From Gemmatimonadota bacterium (GTDB taxonomy: Bacteria; Gemmatimonadota; Gemmatimonadetes; Longimicrobiales; Gaopeijiaceae): a DNA stretch of 63,919 nucleotides. The stretch covers positions 1-63,919 of the forward strand of contig QJYK01000324.1 in the NCBI GenBank assembly GCA_003248075.1, written 5' to 3'. The position numbers and the translations under genes are program-made. The stretch's first letter is position 1, and each line of letters begins with the position of its first letter. The notes under the pieces are model-generated. The model was not told where the DNA came from. It did not search any database and was given only the letters and a program-made list of their open reading frames with translations. Shown here in pieces: positions 4,475 through 16,224 of the stretch.

Positions 4475-5791
4475 TCACTCGAGCAGCGCGGAGAGATCCT
4501 TCGCGGGGATGCCCAGGAGCTCCGCAGCGGCGCTCTCGTCTCCGGACGTGCGCTCGAGCACGGCGCGCGCGTGTCGGGCCATGGCGGACCGCATCGTCAG
4601 GTCTCCGTCCGACTCGACGCCCTCGTCGCCCAGAACGAGGTGGTCCGGCCCGACGATGGTCCCGCGGGCCAGGATCGCGGCCCTCATGAGCGCGTTCTCC
4701 AGCTCCCGGACGTTCCCGGGCCAGGAGTACTCCCGTAGCCTGCGCAGCGCCTCGTCCGAGATACGCCGGATGTTCCTTCGGGTCTCGACGCGGATGCGGC
4801 CGAGCAGCGCCTCCGCGATCAGTCGAATGTCGTCGGGGCGCTCACGGAGCGGCGGCACGTGGAGCTCGACCACCTTCAGCCGGAAATACAGGTCCTCGCG
4901 GAAGCGTCCCCCTGCGACCAGATCCTCGATGGGCTGGTGGGTCGCGGCGATGACACGCGCCTCGGTGATGCGCGCCTCCTCGCCTCCGACCGGATAGAAG
5001 ACACGCTCCTGGAGCACCCGCAGGAGCTTCGTCTGGAACTCGGGGCTCGTATCGCCGATCTCGTCCAGGAAGATCGTGCCCTTCCCCGCCAGCTCGAAGT
5101 AGCCCCTGCGACCGCCGGTGGCGCCCGTGAACGCTCCCTTGACATGACCGAACAGCTCGGACTCGAGCAGCGTGTCCGTGAGCGCGGTGCAGTTCACCGC
5201 GATGAACGGCTCGTCGACGTGCGCGGAGTGGTCGTGCACTGCGCGGGCGATGAGCTCCTTGCCCGTGCCGGTCTCGCCGCGGATGAGCACGGTGGCCCGA
5301 TTCCTCGAGAGTACGCCGATGGTCTTGTAGATCTCGATCATCTGGGGCGTCTTGCCCACGAGGCGCCGAGTCGCCGGGACCTCGGCGAGGTCGCCGTCGC
5401 CCTCGAGCCCCTCCTCCTCCACGAGAGACTGCTCCCGGAAGCATCGATCGGCCAGGGCCTGGAGTGCCTTGGGATCGACCGGCTTGACCAGGAAGTCGAA
5501 GGCGCCCGACTTCATGGCGGTCACCGCCGTATCCATGTCCTCGTGGCCGGTCATGACGACCACGTCCACGCCCTGAAGATCCGAGCGGAGGCGCTCGAGG
5601 AGCTCGAGCCCGCTCATGCCCGTCATGCGGATGTCGGTCACCACGAGGCCGGGGGCGAAGGCAGACACGCGCGCCAGCGCCTCCTCTGCGCTCTCGGCGG
5701 TCTCGACCTCGTAGCCCCCGTGCGTCAGCCGGGTGCGGAAGACCTCCAGCGCGTCGGTATCGTCGTCGACGATCAGGATCCGGTGACTCAT
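4475..5791 (-). CDS. NtrC-type sigma-54 response regulator
   Basis: A 438-residue protein with an N-terminal receiver domain (phosphoacceptor Asp53 in VVTDIRM, conserved Lys103 in LVKPVD), a central sigma-54-interacting AAA+ ATPase (GETGTGKE Walker A, GAFTGA loop that contacts sigma-54, GTIFLDEI Walker B, WPGNVREL), and a short C-terminal Fis-like segment. By family it would remodel RNA polymerase-sigma-54 at enhancer-dependent promoters after phosphorylation. The final helix-turn-helix (AAELLGIPAKDL) stops almost at once and lacks the usual basic recognition helix. No histidine kinase is nearby. The start is the ATG 9 bases after the upstream peptidase gene, making this the last gene of the DnaA-like/PATAN module. 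Confidence 0.9.
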   Translation of the reverse strand: MSHRILIVDDDTDALEVFRTRLTHGGYEVETAESAEEALARVSAFAPGLVVTDIRMTGMSGLELLERLRSDLQGVDVVVMTGHEDMDTAVTAMKSGAFDFLVKPVDPKALQALADRCFREQSLVEEEGLEGDGDLAEVPATRRLVGKTPQMIEIYKTIGVLSRNRATVLIRGETGTGKELIARAVHDHSAHVDEPFIAVNCTALTDTLLESELFGHVKGAFTGATGGRRGYFELAGKGTIFLDEIGDTSPEFQTKLLRVLQERVFYPVGGEEARITEARVIAATHQPIEDLVAGGRFREDLYFRLKVVELHVPPLRERPDDIRLIAEALLGRIRVETRRNIRRISDEALRRLREYSWPGNVRELENALMRAAILARGTIVGPDHLVLGDEGVESDGDLTMRSAMARHARAVLERTSGDESAAAELLGIPAKDLSALLE

Positions 5792-5799
5792 TCCCCGTG

Positions 5800-6768
5800 C
5801 TACCCCGCGGTCCGCGGGGGGTCCCCGTCCTCGCCTGTCTCCCGCCAGAACGCGGGACGCTCGGCCAGCTCGTCGGCGCGCAGGCGCGCGAGGCGCTCGC
5901 GGTTGAGCCGCGCGCGCACGCGCCACATCAGGACCAGCGCCGCGGCGAGCACGAGCCAGAAGATCGACGAGTGCGACAGCACGAAGAGCCAACCGTACCG
6001 ATCGCGGACATGCCTGCGCCAATCCTCCTCGAGCTGACCGGAGGTCACGCCGAACGTTGAGCGGAGCGCGGTCTCGAACGAGCCCTCCTCCCGCCACCGT
6101 TGGAAGAAGAGCTCCAACCCCCGCTCGCCACTCGACGCGAGCAGGTAGGTGACCGCGCTCGCGGCCAGCAGGTAGGCCGTCTCGGCCGACACCCTCTCCC
6201 TCGGCCAGCTCAGCGTGAGGGAGTCGAACCGGGGCGTACGACCCAGGGCGATGAGCACCCGGAGCCGCCACACGTCCAGCGCATCCCATCCGCCCGAAGC
6301 CCACTGGGCGTACCCCTCGTCGAACCAGCGCGGGGCACGCAGCCCGCCGACCTCCTGGTGCAGACCCACGTGGGCCCACTCGTGGCGCAGCGTGCGTAGG
6401 CCGTCGGGATCGAGCACACGACGGCCCTCCCCCGTCGGGATCACCAGGACCCCCAGCTCCGGCAGGGCCACCGCGGCCCGCCACTCCGGGACCCCTCCGC
6501 CGGTCGCTTGCTCGAACGCCGCCGGCGTGTGCGCGAGCACGACCGTCACCCCGGAAGGGACATCCGGAGGCATGCCGGGCAACGCGGGCGCGGCGAGCAG
6601 GGCCGTCAGGACCCGCGGGGCCACGAGGGAGTCCCGCGGGGCGTAGCGCACGCGAGTCGAGCCGCCGGCGATCTCCCGATAGAGGACGCCGTCCAGGGTG
6701 TCCGCGATGACCTGCACCGGCGGGGCGCCGAGTCGCGCGACGCTCACGAGCAGGAGGAGGGCGCTCAC
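5800..6768 (-). CDS. membrane-anchored HEXXH peptidase (MA clan-like)
   Basis: A 322-residue protein with an N-terminal hydrophobic signal/anchor (residues 3-12), a gluzincin-type zinc site (HEWAH in LRHEWAHVGLH, with WFDEGYAQW about 20 residues later supplying the probable third ligand), and one C-terminal transmembrane helix (SSIFWLVLAAALVLMW) followed by an Arg-rich tail. The domain should face the periplasm. The fold resembles the peptidase MA-like families found beside signalling genes. The GTG start at 6768 overlaps the PATAN-TPR stop in a GTGA, implying translational coupling; the longer upstream frame lies inside that gene. The role in the module is unknown; regulated proteolysis is a reasonable guess. 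Confidence 0.75.
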   Translation of the reverse strand: MSALLLLVSVARLGAPPVQVIADTLDGVLYREIAGGSTRVRYAPRDSLVAPRVLTALLAAPALPGMPPDVPSGVTVVLAHTPAAFEQATGGGVPEWRAAVALPELGVLVIPTGEGRRVLDPDGLRTLRHEWAHVGLHQEVGGLRAPRWFDEGYAQWASGGWDALDVWRLRVLIALGRTPRFDSLTLSWPRERVSAETAYLLAASAVTYLLASSGERGLELFFQRWREEGSFETALRSTFGVTSGQLEEDWRRHVRDRYGWLFVLSHSSIFWLVLAAALVLMWRVRARLNRERLARLRADELAERPAFWRETGEDGDPPRTAG

Positions 6769-8381
6769 CCCGTCTCGAGCGACTCCAGGTTCGCGCGCAC
6801 CGCCTCGTTGTCGGCGTTCAGCTCCAACGCACGCTGCCACAGGAGCCGCGCCACGTCCCGATCGTTGTCCTTGTATGCGAGGGTGCCCAATCGCAGAAAC
6901 ACGTCGTCGCCCAGACGCGGCGCCAGCTTGACCGCCTTCTCGTACTGGACGCGCGCGGATTCGTGGTCGCCCCGCGCCCACGCCTGATCGCCCAGGTTCT
7001 TATGCGCCTGTGGCGGCGCGGGCGTGACGGCCACGGCCCTCTTGTAGAGCGCCTCGGCTGCCGACATCTCGCCCAGTCGCTCGAGCACCGCCCCGGTGTT
7101 CACCAGGATCGGTCCCGACTCCGGGTAATGACCGAGCCCCTCTCGCCCCACGGCCACCGCATACTCGAGGTCGCCCGCCACGGCGGCCGCGAGGGCGGTG
7201 TACGCGTAGTACGCCGGCGAGGGCTTCTTCACCTTCGGCGACGTGCGGTAGGCGCGGAGCTCGTCCAGCGCCCGGGCCGCGTCGTGGACTTCGAGACGGG
7301 TCATGGCGGCGAGAAGGTGCACCTCCGGGTCCTCGGGATGCGCGCCCGCCGCCTCCAGCGCACCCAGTGCCTCGTCGTGCCGGCCGGCCAGGACGAAGGC
7401 CAGCGCCCGGTTGCGCTGCACCGTGGGCTTGGAGCGCGCTTCCGCGGGCATGGCGTCGAACCTCGCGATGGCCTGCTCGGGGTGACCGCTCCGCAGCGCG
7501 ATGAGCCCGAGCACGAAGTGCGCCCGTGCTTCTCGGCCGTCCACCGCCAGCACCTCGGTCAGCTCGCGGGTCGCGTCCTCGAGCATGCCGGACCGGTAGA
7601 AGGCGATGCCCAGGTTGAGTCGCTCCTGGAGGTCGTCGTCGGCCCCGGGCTCCGGAACGGCGCGGTACTCACCGGCCCGACTGATGAACCCGCCCTGCAC
7701 CAGACCGTACAGCGCTTTTCCGGTGTCGAAATCACCCAGCCCGCACTCCTGGACGATCTCCGTCACCGTGCGCAGCCCGTCGATGAGCGGGAGCACCTTG
7801 CGCTGCGCATCCGTGAGCTCGACGTCGTCACCCGCGCCCTCGGGGTCCTTGTCCACCTGGAAGACGATGTCGAAGGAGGGGATCTTCTTCTCGACCAGGG
7901 TCCACTCGTCCACCCGACGCGCTCCTTCCATGAGGAGGGATTCGGGCGGTATGTCCACCAGGAAGACGCCGTCTTCGTCGGGTGCCTGGCCGGAGTCGAA
8001 GTGGAAGGAGCCCTGAACCCAGGTGAACAGGTGGTAGACGGCCTCCTCGATCTGTCGGCGAACGTGCTCCTGGAGCACGTCGGGTTGCAGGCTGCCCAGC
8101 TCCAGCAGGATCTCGCCGATGCGTTTCCGCCTCTGCTCGGCCTGCTGCGCCACGGCCGCCCGGAGCTCCTCACGCGTGATGATGCGCTTGCGGACCAGCA
8201 CCTCGCCGAGTCGGTCCGGACGGTTCAACACGGAGGCGTGGATGACGCGGCCGTTGCGGAAGTAGATGTAGCCGAAGTTCGAGCGGTCCGTGATGGACAG
8301 GCAGCCGGTCTTGCGACCCATTCCCAGGAGCTGGCAGATGTCGGCCAGGCTGACGTCCTGGAGCGCGCCCTCGATCGCCAT
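6765..8381 (-). CDS. PATAN (DUF4388) domain and TPR repeat protein
   Basis: A 538-residue cytoplasmic protein. Residues about 1-190 match the PATAN/DUF4388 domain (GALQDVSLADICQLLG start, GCLSI and GYIYFRNGRVIHA strands), a protein-interaction domain first noted at the N-terminus of cyanobacterial PatA regulators. It contains the embedded helical segment with LGEVLVRKRIIT and IGEILLELGSL. Residues about 230-538 are at least seven TPR-like helical repeats (for example ARAHFVLGLIALRSG and AHKNLGDQAWARGD). It therefore looks like a scaffold. The ATG abuts the stop of the DnaA-like gene with zero spacing, so stoichiometric production is likely. PATAN proteins elsewhere accompany polarity and motility regulators and small GTPases; none is present here. 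Confidence 0.88.
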   Translation of the reverse strand: MAIEGALQDVSLADICQLLGMGRKTGCLSITDRSNFGYIYFRNGRVIHASVLNRPDRLGEVLVRKRIITREELRAAVAQQAEQRRKRIGEILLELGSLQPDVLQEHVRRQIEEAVYHLFTWVQGSFHFDSGQAPDEDGVFLVDIPPESLLMEGARRVDEWTLVEKKIPSFDIVFQVDKDPEGAGDDVELTDAQRKVLPLIDGLRTVTEIVQECGLGDFDTGKALYGLVQGGFISRAGEYRAVPEPGADDDLQERLNLGIAFYRSGMLEDATRELTEVLAVDGREARAHFVLGLIALRSGHPEQAIARFDAMPAEARSKPTVQRNRALAFVLAGRHDEALGALEAAGAHPEDPEVHLLAAMTRLEVHDAARALDELRAYRTSPKVKKPSPAYYAYTALAAAVAGDLEYAVAVGREGLGHYPESGPILVNTGAVLERLGEMSAAEALYKRAVAVTPAPPQAHKNLGDQAWARGDHESARVQYEKAVKLAPRLGDDVFLRLGTLAYKDNDRDVARLLWQRALELNADNEAVRANLESLETG

Positions 8382-10190
8382 TCAGTCCAGGTCCTCTTCG
8401 AGGAAATCCTCCAGCTTCGGCCAGCGCAGCACCACGTTCTCGCGAGAGGGGAACCACGAGCCCCCCTTCCTCTTCGGGCTCGGCTCCCCCGCGGCTTCGG
8501 CGGCGCCCCCCGCGGTGGCCCCGACCTCGGTCTGGCCGTTCCAGGCCGGTCGACGCCGGACCGTCACGGGTACCGCGGCCAGCTCGAGCGGGTCGTCGCC
8601 CTGCCCCGACTCGACCTCGAGCACGAGCCCGCCCTCGAAGCGCGACCGCAACCGCTCGTCGACCTCGTCGATCGCGGAGGGCGGGCGGTCCGCGACCAGG
8701 AGCACCCGCGCGCCTCGGCGCTTCAACGCCTCGAACAGGTGGAAGAACTCGTCCTGGGCCCGTTCGGTCTCGGACAGTGCCTCGACGCCGTGGACCAGCA
8801 ACAGGTCGGCGGTCCACCACCGCTCGCGCCACGCCCCGGCCACCCCCGCGCCCAACGCACGGATGAAGTCCGAGGCGAACTCCCGGACCGACGTGACGGC
8901 CATCCGCGATTCGGGGCTGAGCGCCTGGAACGTGCGCCCCGCGGCACCCAGGAGCACCCGGCCACGCTCCGCACGCTCCGACCACAGATAGAGCGGGTTG
9001 TACTCCGGTCGGCCCGACCCGATCAGCTGCTGCACGGCCTTCAGGGCGATGCGGGGGAAGTTCCCCAGCTCGTCGAGATCCGGACCCGGGGTGAGCCTGG
9101 GGAACGGACGTTGGCGCTCGCGCACGGACGCGAGCAGGGCCTCGGCCTCGTCGAGCCGGTCGGGATCCTTGAGGATCGCGCCCGCGGCATCGGGCCACGG
9201 ATTGCTCAGCTGGTCCAGCTCGTAGTCGATGTCCCGCAGGCGCTGGAGGTCGGTCCGGTACCGGCGGACGATCTCCTCCCAACCCGGCAGGTCGTGTCCA
9301 CCCTGGAGCATCTTCAGACGCTGCGCCGAGAAGCCCTCGCGCTCCGCGGCCTCGATGGACTCCCTCAGCGCCTTGCGCCAGGGCTGCTCCTTCGCCTCGA
9401 CGGTGAGGGCGACCGCCCCGGCGAGATCCTCGAGGAAGGTGCCGAAGTCGTCTCGACCGCCGGTCGAGGGAGACGCACCGCCGCCGATCAGGTCCTTGAC
9501 CTCCTCCGCCGAGATCTGGCGCCCCTCCAGGTCCTGCGCGGCCAGGACTCGGTTCAACGCGCCGCCCAGCTCGCGCACGTTCTTGAACGGGTATCGCCCC
9601 AGGGCCTCGGCGACGCCCGTCGCCAGCCGCTGGCCGCTCAGCCCCGCCTTGCGTCGGACGATGGCGACGCGGGTCTCGTACTCGGGAGCGCCGATGTCCA
9701 CGATGAGGCCCCCGGAGAACCGGGAGAGCAGCCGGGCGTCGAGCCCATCGATCTCGGCCGGCGCCCGGTCCGAGGCCAGCATGATCTGGCTCCCGGCCGC
9801 GGACAGCTGGTCGAGCGTCCGCAGGAGCATCTCCTGAGCCTCGTTCTGACCCGCGAGGAACTGGACGTCGTCCAGCAGGAGAATCTCGAGGTCGCCGTAG
9901 CGGTCCTTGAACGCATCCCTGCGCCCACTCTCGAGCGCGGCCTCGAGCTCCTCCAGGTAGCCCTCGAGCGCCATGTACTCGACCCGGGTCCCCCGACCCC
10001 CCTTGTGCACGTGATGCGCGACCGCATGGAGGATGTGCGTCTTTCCCAACCCCGAGCCGGCGTAGACGAAGAGAGGGTTGTAGCTGGTGCCCGGCGAGTC
10101 CGCCGCGCGACGGGCGGCGGCGCTGGCCAGGCGATTGGCGGGACCGACGACGAAGGTGTCGAAGGTCAGCTTCGGATCGAGATCCGTCAT
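8382..10190 (-). CDS. tandem DnaA-like AAA+ protein without DNA-binding domain
   Basis: A 602-residue protein. Residues 1-235 closely follow DnaA domain III: TFDTFVVGPANRLA, YNPLFVYAGSGLGKTH (Walker A, Lys50), LEILLLDDVQF (Walker B, 104-110), LLSRFSGGLIVDI with box VII Arg157, and PFKNVRELGGALNRV. A linker (about 240-370) is rich in charged helices. Residues about 371-530 repeat the same layout, but the P-loop is replaced by SERAERGRVLL and the Walker B Asp-Asp by His-Gly, while the arginine-finger segment (LRSRFEGGLVLEV) remains. There is no DnaA domain IV helix-turn-helix and no domain I. So one module could bind ATP and the other probably only supports assembly. It is not the replication initiator. 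The PATAN-TPR gene follows with zero spacing. Confidence 0.88.
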   Translation of the reverse strand: MTDLDPKLTFDTFVVGPANRLASAAARRAADSPGTSYNPLFVYAGSGLGKTHILHAVAHHVHKGGRGTRVEYMALEGYLEELEAALESGRRDAFKDRYGDLEILLLDDVQFLAGQNEAQEMLLRTLDQLSAAGSQIMLASDRAPAEIDGLDARLLSRFSGGLIVDIGAPEYETRVAIVRRKAGLSGQRLATGVAEALGRYPFKNVRELGGALNRVLAAQDLEGRQISAEEVKDLIGGGASPSTGGRDDFGTFLEDLAGAVALTVEAKEQPWRKALRESIEAAEREGFSAQRLKMLQGGHDLPGWEEIVRRYRTDLQRLRDIDYELDQLSNPWPDAAGAILKDPDRLDEAEALLASVRERQRPFPRLTPGPDLDELGNFPRIALKAVQQLIGSGRPEYNPLYLWSERAERGRVLLGAAGRTFQALSPESRMAVTSVREFASDFIRALGAGVAGAWRERWWTADLLLVHGVEALSETERAQDEFFHLFEALKRRGARVLLVADRPPSAIDEVDERLRSRFEGGLVLEVESGQGDDPLELAAVPVTVRRRPAWNGQTEVGATAGGAAEAAGEPSPKRKGGSWFPSRENVVLRWPKLEDFLEEDLD

Positions 10191-10290: not shown

Positions 10291-11277
10291 TCAGGACGAC
10301 CCCTCGCCCGAGCGCGCCCACAGGACCACCCGCGCCAGGTCCTCGGGAAGCCCGGCCCGGAAATGGAGCCGCTCCCCGGTGACCGGGTGGTCGAACACGA
10401 GCTCGGCAGCGTGCAGGAATTGGCGCGTCGTCTCGAGGGCGAGCGTGCGCGCCCATGAACGGTCCGGGCCTCCGAGTCCGCGTTCCCACCCGGCCCCATA
10501 GAGGGTGTCCCCCACGACGGGGTGTCCGATGTGCGCAAGGTGGACGCGGATCTGATGCGTGCGCCCCGTCTGGAGGGCCACGTCGAGAAAGTCGGCCCGG
10601 ACCCACCGTTCCCGCACGCGCACGCGGGTGACGGCCCGCTTCCCCCCATCGCGCACGGTCATGCGTCGGCGGTCGCGCGGGTCGCGGCCGATGGGGGCGT
10701 CGATCGTCAGCGGACTCTCCGCCAGGTGACCCCAGCTGGCACACCGGTACAGCCGCCTGACCCTTCGCCGGCGCAGCGCATCGGTCAGCCCGAGGTGTGC
10801 GGCGTCGGACTTCGCCACGACCAGGAGCCCCGACGTATCACGGTCGAGTCGGTGCACGATCCCCGGCCGCAGCCGGCCTCCCACCCCGGACAGGTCGCGC
10901 ACGTGATGGAGCAGCGCGTTGACGAGGGTCCCGGAGCGATGCCCCGGTGCCGGGTGCACGACCATCCCGGACCGCTTGTTCACCACCAGGAGGTGCTCGT
11001 CCTCGAAAACGATGTCCAACGGCAAGCTCTCGGCAGCGATCTCCACCGGTTCCGGGGGGGGAACGTGGACCTCGACCCGGGCGCCGCGCGTGACGCGCTC
11101 GGATTTGCGAGCGGGGCGCCCATCCACCGAGACCAACCCCGCGTCGATGATCCGCTGCACGCGGGAACGCGACAGCCCGAGACGATTGGACACGTAACGG
11201 TCCAGGCGGTCCTCGTCGTCAGGCGCGACCTCGAGCACCTCGGTGCGGCCCTCGCTCCCGCCGCGGGACACCGCCAC
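10291..11277 (-). CDS. rluD: RluD-family 23S rRNA pseudouridine synthase
   Basis: A 328-residue RNA modification enzyme. An N-terminal S4 RNA-binding domain (about 20-75, LGLSRSRVQRIIDAGLVSV) precedes the RluA/RluD catalytic domain, with the catalytic Asp in HRLDRDTSG, the LYRC segment and the RTHQIRVHLAHIG motif. RluD acts on 23S helix 69 uridines; the exact target cannot be told from sequence alone, as RluA/RluC/RluD paralogues are similar, but the S4 domain and neighbourhood favour RluD. The GTG start lies 9 bases after ileS. In many bacteria lspA sits between ileS and rluD; it is absent here. A 100-base gap precedes the DnaA-like gene. Confidence 0.88.
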   Translation of the reverse strand: MAVSRGGSEGRTEVLEVAPDDEDRLDRYVSNRLGLSRSRVQRIIDAGLVSVDGRPARKSERVTRGARVEVHVPPPEPVEIAAESLPLDIVFEDEHLLVVNKRSGMVVHPAPGHRSGTLVNALLHHVRDLSGVGGRLRPGIVHRLDRDTSGLLVVAKSDAAHLGLTDALRRRRVRRLYRCASWGHLAESPLTIDAPIGRDPRDRRRMTVRDGGKRAVTRVRVRERWVRADFLDVALQTGRTHQIRVHLAHIGHPVVGDTLYGAGWERGLGGPDRSWARTLALETTRQFLHAAELVFDHPVTGERLHFRAGLPEDLARVVLWARSGEGSS

Positions 11278-11286
11278 CGTACCCGT

Positions 11287-14200
11287 TCAGCGCTCCGCGG
11301 CCCGCAGGGCGATGCGGGCCGGCACCCCGTCGAGATCCACCTCCCGCACGTGCGGGAAGTCCTCACTCTCGAGGCCCGCGATCAGCGACAGGGCCAACGT
11401 CTCCCCGACGATGAACGCCTCGTGCTCCCTGGCCGCGGCGAGCAGCCCCTCCGGACCGTCGAGTCCCAGGTGGATCCGGTCGGTGATCTCGAGTCCCGCG
11501 TCCCTGCGGAGCCGCTGGACGCGGTTGACCACCTCGCGCGCGAGACCCTCGGCGCGCAGATCGTCGTCGAGCTCCACGTCCAGGGCGACCGTGAAACGCC
11601 CCTCGCCCTTCACGACCAGATCGCCTGTGGCCTCCTGCGCCACCTCGAGGTCGCCCTCGTGGAGCGCATGCCGCTCTCCGCCCACCGCGATCTCCACCGT
11701 CGCACCCTCACGGTAGGCCGTGAGCTGCTCCTGATCGAGCCCGCGGATCGCCTCCGCCGCCTCCTGCGTTCGCTTCCCGAAGCGCGCCCCGAGGTCGCGG
11801 AAGCTCGGCCTGGCCACGAGCCTGACCAGGTCGGTCGCCGCATCGGTGAACTCGATCCGTTTCACGTTGAGCTCGTCGCGCACGACGTCCAGCACCGCCC
11901 CCTGAAGCGACCGCCCACCCGGGAGCGCAGCATGGAGCGCCCGGAGCGGCTGTCGGACGCGGATCCGCGCCTCCTCGCGTGCGGCCCGGCCCAACGACAC
12001 GAGTGTGCGTGCCAACTCCATGTCTTCGTCCAGCGCCGCGTCCGTCGGACCGTGATCGGCAGGGTATCGCTCGAGGTGGACGGAGCGACCCGTGAGGGCC
12101 CGGTGCAGCCAGTCGGCCGTGAACGGCAACACCGGGGCGGCCAGGAGCGCCACGCGCACGAGCGCCTCGTGGAGCGTCCGGAAAGCCGCCCGCGCGTCCT
12201 GCTCGGAGCCGTTGCCCCAGAAGCGGGGGCGGGAGCGTCGCACGTACCAGTTGGACAGGTCCTCGATCACGAACTCGCCCAGGGATCGATACGCGCGGGT
12301 GATCTGGTAGCCATCCAGCTCGGCCAGGACCGAGCGGGTCGTACGCGCCACCCGGGAGAGCAGCCAACGGTCGAGGAGGGGCCGGGCCTCGGGCGGGGGA
12401 TCCGCGTCGGACGGCTCCCATCCTTCCACGCCGGCATAGAGCGAGAAGAAGCGGTACGTGTTGAACAGCGTGTCGAAGAACTTGCGCGCGGCTTCCCGCA
12501 CACCCTCGGGGTCGTAGCGCTTCGGCACCCAGGGGTTCGAGACCGTGATGAAGTACCAACGAACCGGGTCCGCCCCGTGCTCGGAGATGGCGTCCCAGGG
12601 GTCGACGACGTTGCCCCTGGACTTCGACATCTTCTGACCCTCGGCGTCGAGGATCAGATCGTTCACGATGACGTTCCGGTAGGACGGGCCGGCACCGAGC
12701 ATCGTGGAGATCGCCATCAACGAATAGAACCAGCCCCGGGTCTGATCGAGCCCCTCACAGATGAAATCCGCGGGAAAGTGGGACTCGAACTCGGCCTGCT
12801 GCTCGAACGGGTAGTGCCATTGGGCCCAGGGCATGGAGCCCGAGTCGAACCAGACGTCGATGACCTCGGGCGTGCGCCTCATGGTCCCGGCGCACTCGGG
12901 GCAATTCCACACGACCTCGTCGATGTACGGCCTGTGCGGGTCGAAGTCGGCGGGTAGCCCGCCGGCCGCCTGGTCGAGCTCGGCCAGCGAGCCGATCCAG
13001 CGAAGGTGTCCCGGATCGGTGTCGCAAACCCAGACAGGGAGGGGTGTCCCCCAATAGCGGTCGCGGGACAACGCCCAGTCGACGTTGCCGCGCAGCCACT
13101 CACCGAAGCGGTTCGCACCGACCTCGGGGGGATACCAGGAGACGCGGTCGTTGTTCGCAACCATGTCGTCCTTGAGCCGGGAGGTCGCGGCGAACCAGGA
13201 GTCGCGCGCCACGTAGAGAAGCGGGGAATCGCAGCGCCAGCAGTGAGGGTAGTTGTGGACCACCGTACCGATGTGGAAGAGCATCCCCCGCTCCCGGAGC
13301 CGCTCCACAAGGAGAGGGTCGGCGTCCTTCACGAACAGGCCGCCCACCAACGGGACGGATTCCACGAAGCGCCCGGCGTCGTCGATCGGATTGAGCATCG
13401 GCAGACCGTGCCGCTGGCCGGCGGCGTAATCGTCCGACCCGTACGCGGGCGCCATGTGCACGATCCCGGTTCCGTCCTCGGCGCTGACGAAGTCCTCGGC
13501 GACCACCGTCCACCCGTTCATCACGTCCGAGGGCGCGGGCACCAGGTCCAGGGGGCGCTGATAGCGCAGCCCCGCCAGCTCCCGGCCCTTCCGTCGCGCC
13601 ACGACCGTGGAGTCCTCGCCGAGGACAGGCCCCACCAGGGACTCGGCGACGATCAAACGCCGGCCGTCGCGCTCGACCTCCGCGTACACCAGCTCCGGAT
13701 GGACCGCGAGACCCGTGTTGGACGGTACCGTCCAGGGCGTGGTGGTCCAGACCAGAAAGGCGCGCCGATCCGGGTCGGGCGAGCCATCCTCGGACAACAC
13801 CGGCGCGAGGAACGTGAGGGATGGATCGTCCACGTCCCGATAGCCCTGGGCCACCTCGTGCGACGAAAGCGCCGTCCCGCACCGTGGGCAGTACGGAACG
13901 CTCTTGTGCCCGCGGTAGAGGAGGCCGCGATCCGCCAGCGACTTCAGGATCCACCAGACCGACTCGATGTATTCGGGGTGGAAGGTGACGTACGGCCTCC
14001 AGTACTCCAGCCAGTAGCCGATGCGTTCGGAGAGGTTCTCCCACTCCTCCTTGTACGTAAACACCGAGTCGCGGCAGGCCTGGTTGAACTTCGCGATGCC
14101 GAGGGCCTCGATCTCCGGCTTGCCGCTGATGCCGAGGCGCTTTTCCGCCTCGATCTCAACGGGGAGCCCATGCGTGTCCCAGCCCGCGATCCGCGTGACG

Positions 14201-14430
14201 CGTCGTCCCTGGAGGGCGCGGTGACGGCACACGAGATCCTTGATGGTACGACTGATGATGTGGTGCAGCCCCGGCCGACCGTTGGCGGTCGGCGGTCCCT
14301 CGTAGAACACGAAGGGCTCGCCGTCCTGGTTGGCGGCGAGGGTACGACGGAACAGGTCCTCGTCCCGCCACCGGGAGAGGGTCTCCTCCTCGACCTCGAG
14401 GACGGTACGCGGCAGCTCTGGGTAGGGCAT
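11287..14430 (-). CDS. ileS: isoleucyl-tRNA synthetase, type II
   Basis: A class I synthetase of about 1047 residues charging tRNA-Ile. The HIGH-type signature appears as GLHHI (residues 54-58 of PPTANGRPGLHHI) and the second signature as QKMSKSRGN. The CP1 editing domain (WTTTPWTVPSNT, about 230) and anticodon-binding C-terminal region are present. Length and the HHI variant match the type II, eukaryote-like IleS class, which in other bacteria is associated with low mupirocin sensitivity. The start is taken at the ATG (14430) one base after the punA stop; an in-frame ATG at 14442 inside punA would add four residues. Neither has a strong SD, consistent with coupled translation. Confidence 0.93.
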   Translation of the reverse strand: MPYPELPRTVLEVEEETLSRWRDEDLFRRTLAANQDGEPFVFYEGPPTANGRPGLHHIISRTIKDLVCRHRALQGRRVTRIAGWDTHGLPVEIEAEKRLGISGKPEIEALGIAKFNQACRDSVFTYKEEWENLSERIGYWLEYWRPYVTFHPEYIESVWWILKSLADRGLLYRGHKSVPYCPRCGTALSSHEVAQGYRDVDDPSLTFLAPVLSEDGSPDPDRRAFLVWTTTPWTVPSNTGLAVHPELVYAEVERDGRRLIVAESLVGPVLGEDSTVVARRKGRELAGLRYQRPLDLVPAPSDVMNGWTVVAEDFVSAEDGTGIVHMAPAYGSDDYAAGQRHGLPMLNPIDDAGRFVESVPLVGGLFVKDADPLLVERLRERGMLFHIGTVVHNYPHCWRCDSPLLYVARDSWFAATSRLKDDMVANNDRVSWYPPEVGANRFGEWLRGNVDWALSRDRYWGTPLPVWVCDTDPGHLRWIGSLAELDQAAGGLPADFDPHRPYIDEVVWNCPECAGTMRRTPEVIDVWFDSGSMPWAQWHYPFEQQAEFESHFPADFICEGLDQTRGWFYSLMAISTMLGAGPSYRNVIVNDLILDAEGQKMSKSRGNVVDPWDAISEHGADPVRWYFITVSNPWVPKRYDPEGVREAARKFFDTLFNTYRFFSLYAGVEGWEPSDADPPPEARPLLDRWLLSRVARTTRSVLAELDGYQITRAYRSLGEFVIEDLSNWYVRRSRPRFWGNGSEQDARAAFRTLHEALVRVALLAAPVLPFTADWLHRALTGRSVHLERYPADHGPTDAALDEDMELARTLVSLGRAAREEARIRVRQPLRALHAALPGGRSLQGAVLDVVRDELNVKRIEFTDAATDLVRLVARPSFRDLGARFGKRTQEAAEAIRGLDQEQLTAYREGATVEIAVGGERHALHEGDLEVAQEATGDLVVKGEGRFTVALDVELDDDLRAEGLAREVVNRVQRLRRDAGLEITDRIHLGLDGPEGLLAAAREHEAFIVGETLALSLIAGLESEDFPHVREVDLDGVPARIALRAAER

Positions 14431-15300: not shown

Positions 15301-16224
15301 TCAGGTCATGCTCGGACCTTCGCCCCCGCCCTTCGGCGGAGGCGGGAAGTCCGGCAGACGGAACAGAGCGCCTTCCGCGGGCTCCTCTCGCGCGTCGCCG
15401 TCCGACGTCGCCGCCTTCGACGGGCGCCTCCACGTGGGTGCGGCGGCCTCCCCCGACTCGGCCGGCTCCTCGATCGAACTCTCCACGCCAGCGTCGTCCA
15501 ACGCGGTCCCCTCACCGTTGTAGAGCTCGGCGAGGCGCTCCACGGGGGCGTCGTATGGAGGGCGCTCTCGAGCGGAGTCATCCACGGCGGCGGGATCATA
15601 CTCGGCGGCCCGGAAGACCCGATCCACGGCCTCCTCCGCCTGCGTCGCGTCGAAGAGGGCCTCTTCGCTCGAGTCGGCCTCCACGTCGCGGTTCTGGGCC
15701 AGATCCAGATCGATGGCCCGGTCGTCGTACGGGGTCCGCCCCTGCTCCACCTCGACGACGTCGAGCTCGCGCTCCAGCAGCTGCCGGTACGTCTTCAGGA
15801 AGCGCACGCGTCGGCGCTCCATCTCCTCCAGCGCAGCCCGCGACTGTTCGTGTCGGGTCTCGGTGTCGCGCAGCCGCGTCCGAGCGTCGCCCTCGGCCTC
15901 CGTGACCGCTCTCCGAGCGGCGGCGTTCGCCTCCTCGATGATCAGCTCGGCCTCGCGCTCGGCCTGCGCCCGGATATCGGCTCGAAGCTCCTGGGCGGTG
16001 ACCAGCGCCTCCTGCACGGCGCGCTCGCGCCCGGACTGCGTGTTCACCTGCTGCGCCAGCAGCTCGGAGCGCTCCCGGAGCTGGAGGTTCTCGCGCACGA
16101 GCGCCTCCAGACGCTCCGACACGAGCAACAGGAAGTGATCGACCTCCTGAGGCTCGTATCCCCGAAGCGCCTTCTTGAAGTCCCGAGGCTTGTTGCGGAC
16201 GTCCAGCGGTGTCAGGTCGATCAT
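15301..16224 (-). CDS. DivIVA-domain coiled-coil protein
   Basis: A 307-residue protein whose first 40 residues match DivIVA (MIDLTPLDVRNKPRDFKKALRG-like start with GYEPQEVDHFL), followed by a long coiled coil (about 35-165) and an acidic, low-complexity tail ending in a Pro/Gly stretch. DivIVA proteins bind negatively curved membrane and recruit polar or septal partners. In Gram-positive bacteria divIVA lies between ylm genes and ileS; here it overlaps yggS in an ATGA and is separated from ileS by punA. It probably organises growth or division sites; its partner through the disordered tail is unknown. Confidence 0.85.
   Translation of the reverse strand: MIDLTPLDVRNKPRDFKKALRGYEPQEVDHFLLLVSERLEALVRENLQLRERSELLAQQVNTQSGRERAVQEALVTAQELRADIRAQAEREAELIIEEANAAARRAVTEAEGDARTRLRDTETRHEQSRAALEEMERRRVRFLKTYRQLLERELDVVEVEQGRTPYDDRAIDLDLAQNRDVEADSSEEALFDATQAEEAVDRVFRAAEYDPAAVDDSARERPPYDAPVERLAELYNGEGTALDDAGVESSIEEPAESGEAAAPTWRRPSKAATSDGDAREEPAEGALFRLPDFPPPPKGGGEGPSMT

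Follow-up and report, generated by a model that had tools for sequence, protein, structure and literature searches.

A tandem DnaA paralogue of Gemmatimonadota with a possible role in an MglA/PATAN motility pathway

The window analysed here (the whole stretch of DNA, 63,919 nucleotides) contains a gene whose 602-aa product holds two DnaA-type AAA+ modules in tandem (8382..10190), as defined by its ORF, Pfam, a genome search and AlphaFold2. Like all other features of the window given below, it lies on the minus strand. AAA+ proteins of the DnaA clade are known chiefly from replication (DnaA, Hda, DnaC/DnaI) and from transposition (IstB). In the following, DnaA2 is our name for the Gemmatimonadota family of this protein, and M1 and M2 denote modules 1 and 2.

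Architecture of the DnaA2 protein

DnaA2 begins with an intact DnaA AAA+ module, continues through a helical linker into a second DnaA module and ends in a conserved peptide at the C-terminus. Module 1 (residues 1-236; 9483..10190) is a complete DnaA domain III with lid, matched by Bac_DnaA at residues 4-165 (Pfam E=1.4e-79) and modelled with pLDDT mostly of 90-97. Its Walker A motif GSGLGKT (residues 45-51; 10038..10058) and Walker B motif LLLDDV (residues 104-109; 9864..9881), which the first-pass annotation had pointed out, are present in the sequence and in our motif table, its box VII/arginine-finger region covers residues 153-157, and its sensor 2 NVRELGGAL covers residues 204-212. In a Foldseek search with the whole DnaA2 model, the best match was domain III of B. 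subtilis DnaA (TM 0.95 by target, rmsd 1.4).

The protein begins straight at domain III, without domain I (DnaA_N), and domain IV, already reported missing, was not found by Pfam either (no PF08299/Bac_DnaA_C match), whereas the genome's own DnaA does match this domain. A six-frame search of the window genome with Bac_DnaA gave four places above cut-off: a full-length DnaA on contig C117, the two modules of DnaA2 (178 and 95 bits) and, more weakly, a place on C330. The DnaA on C117 carries domains I, III and IV, so that DnaA2 is not the sole DnaA of this genome.

A helical linker domain (residues 249-360; 9111..9446), recognised from AlphaFold2 helices and present in aligned relatives, leads to module 2 (residues 366-530; 8601..9095), a DnaA AAA+ core without ATP site or lid. 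The DnaA nature of module 2 is supported by Pfam (Bac_DnaA on the module alone, E=7e-27), by PDB (top match Aquifex DnaA, E=4e-21), by hhalign of a module 2 profile for the window's own GTDB family with that of DnaA (probability of 99.9%, E=3.9e-36, 153 columns), by its fold and by its dN/dS. Moreover, the order of strands and helices in the AlphaFold2 model is that of module 1, shifted by about 360 residues, with most blocks at pLDDT 90-97: strands 40-43, 70-74, 103-107, 135-140 and 162-165 of module 1 recur as 400-403, 430-434, 463-467, 495-500 and 522-525, the likeness of the folds being judged via element order and sequence alignment. The relative placement of the two modules was predicted at low confidence (pTM 0.48-0.52). 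The first-pass annotation had made its reading hinge on a DnaA-like second module and on a separate DnaA in the genome, and both are found here.

The motifs of module 2 are also as first described. In place of the P-loop, which is intact in most other GTDB families, stands SERAERGRVL (residues 404-413; 8952..8981), followed by another Leu, and Walker B is replaced by LLLVHG (residues 463-468; 8787..8804), with His-Gly for Asp-Asp in the motif table. Sensor 1 Asp-Arg is retained, as is the box VII Arg (in 16/16 own-family members) within the arginine-finger segment ERLRSRFEGGL (residues 512-522; 8625..8657). GVAGAWRERWW (residues 449-459; 8814..8846) is essentially invariant in own-family module 2 and replaces part of the DnaA initiator-specific motif. 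Two further features had gone unmentioned: the module 2 lid is gone, residues 534-591 being disordered in the model, and behind this stretch lies a conserved C-terminal motif, SRENVVLRWPKLEDFLEEDLD (residues 582-602; 8385..8447), kept in nearly all relatives including single-module forms (L016 is without it).

The DnaA2 family and the operon of its relatives

A protein search of 200 Gemmatimonadota genomes found full-length DnaA2 homologues in several families, along with ordinary DnaA. The labels f1, f2, f4, f5, f6 and f9 stand for family-level groups with full-length homologues, f1 being the window's own GTDB family. In the motif table of these relatives, the module 1 P-loop GK[ST] is present throughout. 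Module 2 has kept both P-loop and Walker B in nearly every member of f4, f5 and f6. In f2, three of the four members tabulated keep the P-loop of module 2 (L025 has lost it), and all 16 f1 members tabulated have lost it. Outside f1, the P-loop Lys is present in 94% of module-2 copies, and the model of one intact relative, L077, has two complete AAA+ modules with lids. Single-module DnaA2 proteins occur in f9 (four members) and at L043, L064 and L161. As most relatives outside f1 have two intact sites and some have one module, the active-inactive pairing is not the basic design of the family, and may describe the f1 form only. The "decayed" site of the first-pass annotation holds for f1 (16/16) and for one of four members tabulated in a neighbouring family.

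In a tree of 79 AAA+ modules rooted on DnaA, whose bootstrap is not fully settled, DnaA (99/90), M1 (100/99) and M2 (100/99) form single clades, which implies one old duplication. The single-module proteins are placed within the M1 clade, hence they have probably lost M2 after that duplication. The stem leading to the M2 of f1 is 1.26 changes per column long. Two of the single-module forms deviate further. The protein at L161:9471-10526 (G080) is short (351 aa) and strongly diverged, with GK[ST] P-loop and C-terminal motif kept and a partial Bac_DnaA match; that at L043:7128-8342 (G032), with sensor 1 altered and the sensor 2 motif missing, adjoins a rather complete Che/MglA cluster.

Other lineages (23 genomes) gave only DnaA-like single-module matches, and no strong DnaA2 match occurred in 284 and 297 genomes from the phyla of a Myxococcales and a Vicinamibacteraceae locus. 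In a genome contig search outside the phylum, 74 of 80 loci among the matches listed cover only part of the query and carry DnaA. Across the phyla sampled, which are not all phyla, these searches suggest that DnaA2 is likely restricted to Gemmatimonadota. An origin from mobile elements was also considered and rejected: in plasmids and phages, linker plus module 2 was matched only in part, over the DnaA-like module, where no record covers 80% of the query and several are annotated dnaA.

In f2-f6 and f9, DnaA2 lies within a conserved operon of about 16 genes. Its first part encodes CheA, CheC, a 900-aa TPR protein, a PATAN-TPR protein (~380 aa), a TPR-roadblock protein, two roadblock proteins and an MglA-type GTPase; its second part encodes DnaA2, a PATAN-TPR protein of ~540 aa (PATAN540), CheR, CheD, CheB, two CheW, a TPR protein and a peptidase-MA protein. 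Pfam confirmed CheA, CheC, CheR, CheD, CheB, both CheW, three Robl_LC7, the small GTPase and DUF4388-TPR. At L044, most of these genes have overlapping or directly adjoining ends. Gene content varies and some clusters are without every operon gene, yet DnaA2 and PATAN540 are neighbours in clusters of f1-f6 and f9. Proximity of MglA and PATAN genes is a known association (PMC4316618).

Two clusters with the operon-type MglA (MglA-1), L160 (G010) and L162 (G047), have a shorter, diverged PATAN-TPR gene and no DnaA2; between MglA and PATAN, at the expected place of DnaA2, both have a small unannotated ORF (72-73 aa). DnaA2 is therefore not essential to the cluster. Likewise, f9 has the Che cluster without module 2, so the pair of modules is not essential.

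This context bears on the first-pass proposal that the tandem serves something other than origin binding, which agrees with the lack of domain IV, the separate DnaA and the motility-type neighbourhood in relatives. It also bears on a role in loading the helicase, as played by DnaC/DnaI. Loaders of the DnaC type are related to DnaA within the AAA+ proteins, but the DnaI/DnaC-type scores of DnaA2 are weak, its distribution is patchy and its gene context is that of motility; moreover, Gemmatimonadetes are among the phyla named as having the alternative helicase operator DciA (PMC5109545). We regard a loader as scarcely credible.

The DnaA2 locus of the window and its selection

In the window, the start codon of a PATAN (DUF4388)-TPR gene (538 aa; 6765..8381; Pfam E=5.7e-40, and co-retention) directly follows the stop codon of DnaA2 (TGA-ATG). 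Next come a Peptidase MA superfamily protein (Peptidase_MA_2 by Pfam; 5800..6768), also present in clusters of relatives, and an NtrC-type response regulator with receiver and sigma-54 AAA+ domains (Pfam; 4475..5791), which adjoins the remnant in several own-family genomes. On the other side are a RluD-type pseudouridine synthase (10291..11277), a flank marking the ancestral cluster site, and, as outer flank, isoleucyl-tRNA synthetase (ileS; 11287..14430), both named from sequence. The order is thus ileS, rluD, DnaA2, PATAN-TPR, peptidase MA and NtrC-type regulator. Since rluD also stands upstream of the cluster in L058, L081, L160 and L161, and L162 has the order ileS-rluD-MglA-PATAN, the window is most likely a remnant of the same locus, reduced by loss in place. 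A DivIVA-domain protein (15301-16224, minus strand) lies near the ileS-rluD-DnaA2 locus, as it does in several other f1 genomes.

The window genome has no CheW above cut-off and no roadblock domain, and its only DUF4388 protein is the neighbour of DnaA2. It has one MglA, on another contig than DnaA2; this is of a second type, a different paralogue (59% identity). The second MglA has a conserved housekeeping context of its own (L159:6297-13857 on contig C196 of G000; also L163, L164, L165 and L168), which comprises dnaX, ybaB, recR, a small gene, mglA, a pgsA-like gene, cinA and a gene similar to the dnaJ-like one at the end of the window. A roadblock gene precedes mglA in L164 and L165, and no roadblock domain was found there in the window genome.

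With Che, roadblock and MglA-1 genes missing from the window genome, and ATP site and lid missing from module 2, DnaA2 might be a functionless, decaying relic of the lost Che/MglA operon. However, for module 2 of f1 the two closest pairs (L017/L018, L012/L013) give a dN/dS of 0.05 and three pairs at greater distance 0.12-0.21, and module 1 is similar in this; both modules span 0.04-0.21 in own-family pairs, against 0.38-1.02 for the disordered tail of f1 DnaA2, as estimated by a simple counting method with synonymous sites partly saturated. By these estimates module 2 of f1 is under strong purifying selection, and thus the dead ATP site is maintained and not decaying. The essentially invariant new motif GVAGAWRERWW and the exact co-retention with PATAN540 (see below) also argue against a relic, which we consider most unlikely.

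Comparison with DnaA residues in E. coli numbering suggests that the two modules have specialised. The roles of these residues, including the ssDNA-binding H/B motif (Val211, Arg245), have been reported (PMC5742627). In module 1 outside f1 and f9, Lys178, Asp235/236, Asp269, Arg281, Arg285 and Arg334 are retained, while Val211 is replaced by His (74%), Arg245 by Glu (88%) and Lys243 by Arg (57%), and Arg227 is lost. By alignment, the residues lost from module 1 (Val211, Arg227, Lys243, Arg245) are those of ssDNA and oligomer contacts. Module 2 outside f1 mostly retains Ile/Val211, Arg227, Lys243, Arg245, Arg281 and Arg285; module 2 of f1 retains Ile211 and Arg245, with Trp at 227 and mostly Thr at 243, inside GVAGAWRERWW. 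Hence module 1 has best preserved the ATP machinery, and module 2 the initiator-specific motif.

According to this pattern, module 2 could bind nucleic acid and anchor a motility/chemosensory complex to the nucleoid, module 1 acting only as a switch. In module 2 the H/B residues survive the loss of the ATP site (I 100%, R 93%), whereas they are gone from module 1, and nucleoid-associated chemosensory arrays are known in Myxococcus (PMC6952110). We think such a tether rather unlikely, because module 2 of f1 has mostly Thr for Lys243 and Trp for Arg227, f9 has no module 2 and domain IV is absent.

Within f1, DnaA2 is present in 17 of 52 genomes. PATAN540 occurs in 17/17 genomes with DnaA2 versus 0/35 without, MglA in 17/17 versus 7/35, and two or more PilT genes in 16/17 versus 0/35 (Fisher tests, kinship ignored). 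Shared ancestry confounds this co-retention apart from three genera with both states (G136 vs G082, G154 and G165; G116 vs G118; G134 vs G132), in which genomes that have lost DnaA2 have also lost PATAN540 and have fewer PilT genes. DnaA2 is likewise missing from several genomes outside f1 whose only MglA is of the second type. Nine genomes have MglA-1 without a strong DnaA2 match (G010, G047, G062, G080, G094, G095, G113, G137, G159); in three of these the cluster was inspected, and it is without DnaA2 in G010 and G047 and holds the short divergent form in G080.

These data bear on the intramolecular, Hda-like control first proposed for the tandem, and on a rival reading of DnaA2 as an Hda-like regulator, which would contact DnaA and, by means of an arginine finger, set off hydrolysis of the ATP bound there, so that replication timing is tied to a further signal. 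The DnaA-type fold, the arginine-finger residues in both modules and a weak similarity to Hda fit such a regulator. However, the score is 104.1 bits against an NCBIfam Hda cut-off of 194.8, DnaA2 begins at the AAA+ domain and has no N-terminal extension able to hold a clamp-binding site, and the neighbours in relatives are Che, MglA and PATAN genes and no replication genes. In addition, DnaA2 is missing from many near-complete f1 genomes, and is tied there to PATAN and PilT. An Hda-like regulator therefore appears decidedly unlikely, and Hda-like control of the tandem is not supported.

Proposed role and comparison with known systems

DnaA2 seems to be a non-replicative DnaA paralogue of Gemmatimonadota, a replication module reused elsewhere. 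Its membership in the MglA/PATAN pathway is supported by genomics, through operon and co-retention. In our preferred reading, to which we give a probability of roughly 0.6, DnaA2 is an ATP-switch AAA+ protein of this pathway, which would control type IV pilus motility. The family, its architecture, the duplication, the operon in relatives, co-retention and selection are read from sequence; ATP switching, docking by the C-terminal motif and action on MglA and pili are proposed from DnaA biochemistry and MglA biology (PMC4316618).

Domain III of DnaA, its AAA+ part, was doubled to a tandem that lacks domains I and IV and that acquired a helical linker as well as a motif at the C-terminus. Ancestral DnaA2 probably belonged to an operon of chemosensory, MglA-GTPase/roadblock and PATAN-TPR genes, which would control type IV pilus motility or polarity, as suggested by the roles of MglA and PATAN elsewhere and the association with PilT. 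By analogy with DnaA, module 1 would bind ATP and assemble head-to-tail via the arginine finger, and module 2 may provide a partner surface and an arginine finger. The C-terminal motif would dock the ATPase on the PATAN-TPR protein encoded directly downstream, so that the nucleotide state of DnaA2 could switch the PATAN/MglA complex. In f1, Che, roadblock and operon-linked MglA genes were lost and module 2 turned into a conserved pseudo-ATPase. More tentatively, and with clearly less confidence, DnaA2 could be a dedicated regulator of the MglA-type polarity GTPase, linking chemosensory input, and perhaps the state of the nucleoid or of single-stranded nucleic acid via the ssDNA residues kept in module 2, to type IV pilus motility.

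If true, the DnaA clade would be used outside replication and transposition: a DnaA paralogue family fixed in a chemosensory-MglA operon across the families of one phylum would show recruitment to polarity and motility signalling. The family also offers a natural series of two active sites, one dead site and a single module. The function of PATAN (DUF4388) proteins is poorly known, and an operon that unites the Che pathway, MglA, roadblock and PATAN in one transcription unit gives testable partners for them. In the open-access literature we found no description of DnaA paralogues encoded in Che or MglA operons, no link between DnaA and DUF4388, and none that connects paralogues of DnaA with Gemmatimonadetes and MglA. 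Each of the components (DnaA domain, Che genes, MglA, PATAN) is known by itself; the way they are combined, and likewise the family of tandem DnaA2 proteins, seems to be new.

ORC subunits and tandem AAA+ proteins such as the p97 type combine an active with an inactive site, and, in a comparison from general knowledge, f1 DnaA2 resembles them in its adjoining active and degenerate ATP sites. Unlike these, its degeneracy is lineage-specific, it belongs to the DnaA clade, and there is no sign of origin or substrate remodelling roles. Like Hda, DnaA2 is a stand-alone DnaA-type AAA+ protein without domain IV and with the arginine finger kept; unlike Hda, it is a tandem without N-terminal clamp-binding extension, stays below the family cut-off and has another context.

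With domain III of DnaA, DnaA2 shares the AAA+ fold, the module 1 ATP site, box VII/arginine finger and sensor 2, with 42% identity to B. subtilis DnaA domain III over 233 columns. It differs from DnaA in lacking domains I and IV, in its tandem modules and gene context, and in standing beside a separate DnaA. Moreover, the H/B ssDNA residues and Arg227 of AID-1 are gone from its module 1, and the Trp of FxWGL is Gly in both modules. The pathway itself resembles Frz and MglA/MglB of Myxococcus xanthus, as a Che pathway with an MglA GTPase, roadblock and TPR/PATAN proteins and a link to type IV pili. Whereas mglA of Myxococcus is not near the genes of its partners (PMC4316618), the operon of the DnaA2 relatives holds all of these together with a DnaA-type AAA+ protein.
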